DNA from: Halorubrum kocurii JCM 14978
GTDB taxonomy: Archaea > Halobacteriota > Halobacteria > Halobacteriales > Haloferacaceae
Assembly: GCF_000337355.1 (NCBI RefSeq)
Contig: NZ_AOJH01000083.1
Span: forward strand, 1 to 42,174
DNA: 42,174 nt
Reading direction: 5' to 3'
Part shown: one piece after another, positions 27,269-33,600 of the stretch
How the letters are laid out: each line of letters starts with the position of its first letter
Numbering within the stretch: position 1 is the stretch's first letter
Position numbers and translations under genes: made by a program
The notes under the pieces: generated by a model
The model's input: only the letters and a program-made list of their open reading frames with translations
Database searches by the model: none
Told to the model about the DNA's origin: nothing

Positions 27269-27560
27269 ATGCTTATAAATGGGTAACGATGGATCGATGA
27301 CGAACACCGCCAAAGCCCCAGTCGCGAGGACTCGCGCGGCCTGCTGCGCTCCTCGCTCAGTCGCTGGCGCTCCTTCGCTGCGGTGCTTGTTGCGCCGTGC
27401 TTCGTCCACGCGACTGCCCCTTTGAGTCCCACCCCGCACCGCTCCGCACAGCACCTCACGCCTCCCCAGCCTCGTCGCTCGCCAGAGGCGAGCGACTCCC
27501 TCGCGCGTGCTGACTCGCGCCCTGCGGGCGCTCGCAGGCACGCGCCACTGCGACAGCCTC
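27269..27560 (+). repeat. Dispersed GC-rich non-coding repeat, copy A
   Basis: The 440-nt gap between the two GTPase genes holds no credible gene. It starts with an AT box (GCTTATAAATG, 27270-27280), then a long GC-rich block with many short inverted repeats. A 52-nt core (27448-27499) matches 33420-33471 at all but five positions. The first part (GAACACCGCCAAAGCCCC) also has a weaker match in copy B. I associate such blocks with repeats scattered through Halorubrum genomes (memory, unverified). Boundaries are approximate. Confidence 0.7.
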
Positions 27561-33004: not shown

Positions 33005-33375
33005 TGCGAGGAGAAAGCCCCGCCGTTCACGGCGGGGATGAATCCGACAACCCCTCTACGAACTACGTTCGACGTGCCGAACGGATATTTAAGTAGCTTG
33101 AGATCGTATTTAAGCACAACCGAGGCGGTCTCCCCGCCCCACTAATCGGACAATATCGGGATTCCCTCATTTCAAGCGGAAGACACCCTCTTCCGTGCCG
33201 AAATAGGGTGTAGGCAGGAAGAAGTACCTCCGAATCCCATGCCGGGATAGGAGTAACGGCTGGTTGGCACAGCCAGTAGCCGCCATCGAGGCGTCTACAA
33301 ACCGTAACCATCCCAACCCAGCGGTGTAGTGCCGTGGGAATCTTCGCCCTTCAGGGCGGAGAGGATGTCAACCAT
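33005..33375 (+). mobile_element. Decayed IS200/IS605-family element with two right-end-like hairpins
   Basis: Between proS and the second glutamate dehydrogenase are two hairpins typical of right ends of IS605/IS1341 elements: CCCCGCCG-TTCA-CGGCGGGG (33018-33037) and a 10-bp stem with one wobble centred on CGCCCT-TC-AGGGCG (33341-33362), the latter followed by GAGGATGTCAA, as in haloarchaeal TnpB-element ends. Between them are two ATTTAAG boxes (about 33088 and 33110), as expected of an element's left end or promoter. No TnpA or intact TnpB remains, so this is a relic, perhaps of two nested insertions. Boundaries are approximate. Confidence 0.55.
33207..33329 (+). pseudogene. Possible C-terminal remnant of a TnpB gene
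   Basis: In the frame ending at the TAG at 33327-33329 the sequence reads DRSNGWLAQPVAAIEAS before the stop, which lies just upstream of the right-end hairpin, exactly where a TnpB gene would end. The frame is blocked by a stop at 33204, and a frameshift near 33245 would join it to a preceding PMPG-containing frame, as if one base was gained. All catalytic parts (RuvC, zinc finger) are gone. The identification rests on position and my memory of haloarchaeal TnpB tails. Confidence 0.4.
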
Positions 33376-33399
33376 GATCGACTCCGGGGTGAACACTTC

Positions 33400-33600
33400 C
33401 AAAGACCGCACGGAATCGGACAGCACCTCACACCTCCCCAGCCTCGTCGCCCGCCTCTGGCGAGCGACTCCAGCGAGCGACCGGCGGTCCCGCTGGCAGC
33501 CGGCGCGCAGCGCCGGCGACCTCGCACATGCTCCTCGACGGCCGCCGAGGGCGATCACTCGTGCACACGCCACCGCGGCGTTCGTTTATAAATGATCGTC
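33400..33600 (+). repeat. Dispersed GC-rich non-coding repeat, copy B
   Basis: The sequence following the IS relic repeats the core of copy A: 33420-33471 matches 27448-27499 over 52 nt with five differences. Three of them turn the loop of an 11-bp stem from CGCC-AGA-GGCG to CGCC-TCT-GGCG, an exact inversion of the hairpin. Upstream, GAACACTTCCAAAGACC resembles the start of copy A, so copy B looks shortened inside. It ends near TTTATAAATG (33588-33597), a box also found at the left of copy A. No gene is supported in 33376-33697. Confidence 0.7.

Follow-up and report, generated by a model that had tools for sequence, protein, structure and literature searches.

The closest described haloarchaeal repeats are, going by the accessible part of their description, the PATEs and SMRs of Haloquadratum walsbyi, elements without a transposase that feature palindromes and mini-repeats inserted into palindromes (PMC3119063). 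In bacteria, the REP and BIME sequences, including the GTAG- and CGTC-tagged classes, are high-copy intergenic stem-loops located mostly between unidirectional or convergent genes; in the accessible text a REP is defined as a single palindrome of 20–40 bp, and the CGTC class has stems of 8–9 bp and mostly a CCA tail (PMC3733652). Haloarchaea are not named in the accessible portion of that paper, nor in that of a 2025 survey of REP-like palindromes across archaea (PMC12306157). REPs of the GTAG class are characterised by a RAYT transposase gene that the repeat flanks. Small inversions at stem-loops are described for plastids, where, according to the available part of the source, one loop form is common and the other rare, and where the inversions are recurrent and found mostly in intergenic spacers (PMC6824564).

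The window analysed here, a stretch of 42,174 nucleotides from Halorubrum kocurii JCM 14978, contains two copies (A and B) of an intergenic structured repeat family that is found throughout Halorubrum. Their parts are the following:

27273–27279, plus strand: left edge of copy A, TTATAAA, start of the left unit; TTATAA stands at the same place in many H. kocurii copies
27308–27319, plus strand: conserved left block of copy A, CGCCAAAGCCCC
27323–27412, plus strand: long left hairpin module of copy A (CGCGAGG ... CACGCG; pairing read by eye), absent from copy B
27421–27430, plus strand: conserved block of copy A, TTTGAGTCCC
27452–27474, plus strand: conserved core of copy A, reading CGAGGCTGGGGAGGCGTGAGGTG on the minus strand
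27474–27496, plus strand: hairpin 1 of copy A, 10-bp arms, loop AGA at 27484–27486
27497–27502, plus strand: conserved linker of copy A, TCCCTC (GAGGGA on the minus strand)
27503–27545, plus strand: hairpin 2 of copy A, with an interrupted stem
27546–27551, plus strand: right end block of copy A, CACTGC (usually CACCGC)
33388–33404, plus strand: remnant of the left block of copy B
33424–33446, plus strand: conserved core of copy B
33446–33468, plus strand: hairpin 1 of copy B, loop TCT at 33456–33458, one arm mismatch
33472–33520, plus strand: second mini-repeat with two hairpins, nested in copy B between hairpin 1 and hairpin 2; a similar insert is present in loci L019, L045, L241 and L242
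33521–33576, plus strand: hairpin 2 and right end block of copy B, ACACGCCACCGC
33585–33594, plus strand: TTTATAAATG, just beyond copy B on its right; in the H. kocurii genome this sequence is common at right edges

Direct alignment of 27448–27499 (copy A) with 33420–33471 (copy B) gave 47 identities in 52 positions and loops of AGA and TCT, just as the original prediction had it; the differences outside the loop are 27460 G / 33432 A and 27479 T / 33451 C. Hairpin 1 reads GTCGCTCGCC-AGA-GGCGAGCGAC in copy A and GTCGCCCGCC-TCT-GGCGAGCGAC in copy B, with arms of 10 bp in both, and the single arm mismatch of copy B, C against A on the plus strand, becomes G-U when read on the minus strand. This likeness goes beyond chance, as a 31-base core pattern with up to three mismatches was matched 34 times in the H. 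kocurii genome and not once by a reversed-letter control. The longer left part ascribed to copy A was found as well: it spans 27308–27430, while copy B retains the remnant alone, a state that, as read by eye, is common to about 20 other H. kocurii copies. Copy A has all parts of the family except the right-hand TTTATAA; the left hairpin has been lost from copy B. A GTPase gene lies on either side of copy A; the neighbours of copy B are a prolyl-tRNA synthetase gene and a gene of the glutamate dehydrogenase family.

The mini-repeat nested in copy B is about 50 bp long and forms two hairpins (AGCGAG..CTGGCAGCCGGCG..CGCCGGCGAC); besides the loci listed above it is present in L253. It can point either way and is located within the main family's hairpins or next to them. 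The insertion of SMR-A into palindromes, as given in the accessible description from Haloquadratum, resembles this arrangement. Two further palindromes are present in the window, one at 33014–33037 (GCCCCGCC..GGCGGGG) and one at 33336–33371 (CGCCCTTCAGGGCG, ending in GGATGTCAA). They resemble the two ends of an IS605/IS1341-type element from which the core has been deleted, and a similar right end adjoins the copy in locus L213.

A 23-base core pattern was matched 74 times in the H. kocurii genome and once by the control. Several contig ends of the assembly (C40, C52, C61, C68, C69 and C87) lie inside or near the repeat, so that 74 copies may be an undercount. Read on the plus strand, the repeat begins with at least one left unit (TTATAAA ... 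CCAAAGCCCC), followed by the optional long hairpin, TTTGAGTCCC and a short microrepeat; then come the core CRCCTCACRCCTCCCCAGCCTCG, hairpin 1, TCCCTCGC, hairpin 2, CACCGC and often TTTATAA. The left unit with TTATAAATG..GGTGAACACC..AAAGCCCC is tandemly repeated at a spacing of about 60–70 bp in many H. kocurii copies, for example L007, L024 and L223. Locus L389, in the first 200 bases of G007:C146, contains four tandem repeats of a 35-bp unit that comprises the core and half of hairpin 1; slippage or template switching may have produced them, or they may be an artefact of assembly where the contig ends.

Like the bacterial REP sequences, the Halorubrum repeat is high-copy and intergenic: a simple gene finder based on codon usage placed none of 73 H. 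kocurii copies inside a gene, and the 60 copies with both neighbours called showed a convergent bias (28 convergent, 25 tandem and 7 divergent). No strand preference relative to the neighbouring genes was seen, the left gene being on the plus strand in 50 of 67 cases and the right gene on the minus strand in 42 of 66. The repeat differs from REPs in size, tags and tails, being a multi-hairpin unit of about 110–280 bp, with 10-bp stems in copies A and B and with a hairpin 1 that ends in CGAC-TCC; it also differs in its several hairpins, its long conserved single-stranded blocks and its arms, which change freely between copies. In the accessible account, PATEs and SMRs are marked by palindromes close to their termini or by inverted terminal repeats, whereas the hairpins of the present family form a series in its interior, a comparison made by description. 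The ends of H. kocurii copies were viewed by eye, and neither inverted ends nor a target duplication, as in MITEs or SMR-A, were resolved at site A. We read copies A and B, with a probability of about 0.6, as high-copy, non-coding, REP-like haloarchaeal repeats that mostly sit at fixed sites and whose hairpins are often overwritten and occasionally inverted.

The original prediction held that the stem-loop had flipped between the two copies and that loops, once collected and counted, would fall into two clean orientations. A and B are separate copies and the AGA/TCT difference alone therefore proves nothing. Three-nucleotide loops, present in 20 of 52 genomes, turned out to be scattered over 17 triplets in 45 places, which goes against two clean orientations; they include four reverse-complement pairs (P = 0.108), which is not clearly above chance, so that A against B alone is no proof of a flip. 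The flip itself is borne out for the family by hairpins with an asymmetric tip (type YYCGCKTYGCT), which occurs 720 times in normal orientation (49 of 52 genomes) and is inverted in 13 copies (12 of 52 genomes), with no match in the control. Compared by eye, each of the 13 inverted hairpins is the reverse complement of a hairpin of the normal type, with the adjoining core and linker in their usual orientation. Hairpin inversion within unflipped flanks thus occurs in the family. Hairpin 1 of locus L090 is a near reverse complement of the 48-nt hairpin of L015, and in L247 the asymmetry of the arms also appears inverted (by eye, against L092), which places the breakpoints near the base of the hairpin.

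Candidates for a flip in place were found at two sites. At site A the relative G005 has the same arms and flanks and, instead of AGA, the loop TCC, which is of the opposite type and a single change away from the exact flip TCT. Three other positions differ over about 170 columns, hairpin 2 and the flank among them, and the hairpin scores 0.74 in direct and 0.91 in inverted comparison. The best reading of this loop is a flip followed or preceded by one substitution; three substitutions could also give it. The second candidate is L376, whose hairpin occupies the site of the inverted L241 and has arms of the L241 type, but in normal orientation; at this site L383, too, has its own tip of the inverted type. 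Since the tip is oriented one way in 98 percent of cases, flipping is either rare or selected against. As in the small inversions of chloroplasts, the same stem encloses sequence in both orientations; those, however, are loops at a single locus, whereas here an entire hairpin inverts within an archaeal repeat that is dispersed, alongside frequent replacement. By analogy, a hairpin-bounded inversion process of the plastid type would explain the rare flips.

Selection for structure had been offered as an alternative to flipping. It is supported by compensated changes and is compatible with flipping, so that it is no alternative to it: in 58 minus-strand copies, hand-chosen from 98 candidate sequences for a similar type of hairpin 1, RNAalifold predicted 26 pairs, 15 of which show compensated double changes. 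Which strand folds is suggested by the imperfections of the stems. Hairpin 2 could be parsed in 179 of 345 distinct copies and has a TC/TC interruption in 126 of them, whatever the flanking pairs; four copies have GA/TC or TC/GA at this site, which pair perfectly, and none of the 179 has GA/GA. Read on the minus strand, this interruption becomes a tandem G-A mismatch, a stable motif in both RNA and DNA. Among imperfect pairs, A-C outnumbers G-T by 65 to 18 in hairpin 2 (235 distinct sequences) and by 23 to 10 in hairpin 1 (209 distinct sequences), counts that refer to distinct sequences rather than independent events and are uncorrected for relatedness. An A-C mismatch on the plus strand is G-U or G-T on the minus strand, and the arm mismatch of copy B is of the same kind. 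The mismatch counts favour the G-rich minus strand as the folded one; base-pair counts from columns 19–22 of the RNAalifold alignment, possibly out of register, were left out of this argument.

Core matches with at most one mismatch were present in all 22 other Halorubrum genomes, at 11 to 160 per genome, and in none of 16 genomes of other genera. In a core search of a wider collection, the 80 matches listed came from Halorubrum, from three loci of Halobellus captivus and from a few unclassified halophile assemblies. A covariance model reached further: in a sample of 243 genomes of the order, it gave matches at E 1e-5 or better in 33, of which 15 belong to Halorubrum, four to a second genus of the same family and 14 to three further genera; when six outside genomes were searched again with the model, the best result was 35 matches. 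The loci outside the genus keep GAGGGA and GAGGYTGGGGAGG around hairpins of unrelated sequence, no hairpin 1 sequence being common to Halorubrum and the outside loci. Two of the outside hairpins have the same arms and the loops TCC and GGA, which are reverse complements. A TATA-driven transcript starting from the right edge was considered and rejected: the box is common in H. kocurii and, by eye, not evident beside the outside-genus copies.

This distribution bears on the first rival explanation, a class-wide structured RNA gene or protein binding site in which the hairpin sequence is free and the single-stranded core is functional. The persistence of GAGGYTGGGGAGG and GAGGGA beside unrelated hairpins points in this direction, as do the wobble excess on the minus strand and the outer stem of hairpin 1, which has at least six pairs in 22 of 25 distinct outside sequences and in 8 percent of shuffles. 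The variation in copy number, from 11 to 160 per genome, argues against it, and so does the lack of an Rfam match: of the searches with Rfam 15 covariance models, two gave no match and one gave three at E 1.5 or worse, far below the gathering scores. We consider this explanation possible, though on the whole doubtful. In the literature accessible to our search, no paper contains the core strings, and none among those listed for Halorubrum and haloarchaeal repeats names this family.

A second explanation, somewhat less probable still, is an active non-autonomous mobile element of the MITE, PATE or SMR type, fresh copies of which would land repeatedly in tolerated intergenic spots; inverted hairpins would then arise in transposition through single-stranded DNA. 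Such elements are known from haloarchaea (PMC3119063, accessible part), the number of matches per genome is compatible with them, and there is evidence of mobility that speaks against a purely fixed-site view: at site A, where a copy is present in 15 of 30 loci, short empty spacers of 60–97 bp were found in L288, L292, L293 and L307, and at site B, with a copy in 13 of 30 loci, three copies are on the plus and ten on the minus strand. However, all 15 copies at site A have the same orientation. At ten other H. kocurii sites, examined in nine relatives, 70 orthologous loci (tallied by locus, with spurious five-mismatch and double matches removed by eye) comprised 37 with a copy in the same orientation, one with the opposite orientation and 32 without a copy. 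Of 42 regions orthologous to seven copies with an inverted hairpin, 31 have a copy; every one of these is oriented like the reference, and most have another hairpin 1. Hairpin 2 and its flank can moreover persist while hairpin 1 changes, as in L375, L376 and L378.

For the most part, then, copies stay at their sites and it is their hairpins that are renewed, though some copies have been gained, lost or reinserted. Hairpin 1 of H. kocurii was unchanged in 2 of the 37 same-orientation copies at the ten sites, and in 39 same-flank pairs, which are not independent, it was the same in five, near in two, better inverted in one (site A against G005) and otherwise different in 31. Wholesale replacement of the hairpin is far commoner than flipping. 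The remaining explanation, that loops merely mutate and that A and B differ by three coincidental substitutions, agrees with the scatter of the three-nucleotide loops and could still hold for A against B alone, but it is very improbable and for the family is refuted by the 13 inverted hairpins, since point substitutions are an implausible source of whole asymmetric hairpins of about 35 nt that are reverse complements.

In our preferred reading of a fixed-site, REP-like repeat, the element consists of conserved single-stranded blocks around at least two hairpins and sits between genes, most often convergent ones. Its stems persist although their sequence varies, probably because folding of the G-rich minus strand is required, whether in RNA or in single-stranded DNA. 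Inheritance at fixed sites is the rule for most copies, and their hairpins are often overwritten from other copies, as we infer by gene conversion between dispersed copies. Occasionally a hairpin is inverted between its flanks, since its two arms form an inverted repeat, presumably through template switching or recombination between the arms. The sequence comparisons establish the family, its fixed sites, the replacement and the inversion; the molecular steps, the molecule that folds and the function are proposals. More speculatively, the repeat may be a haloarchaea-wide element in which hairpins of the G-rich strand are joined by the fixed GAGGGA and GAGGYTGGGGAGG, and in which template switching and exchange between copies rewrite, and at times invert, the stems on a constant scaffold of RNA or single-stranded DNA.

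The repeat affects genome assembly, through contig ends, as well as gene annotation. As a structured repeat in several haloarchaeal genera that belongs to no known family, it is a candidate non-coding RNA or binding site of a host factor. With hundreds of copies that combine fixed blocks with both orientations of the hairpin, it represents a natural assay of the inversion and exchange of hairpin DNA in archaea.
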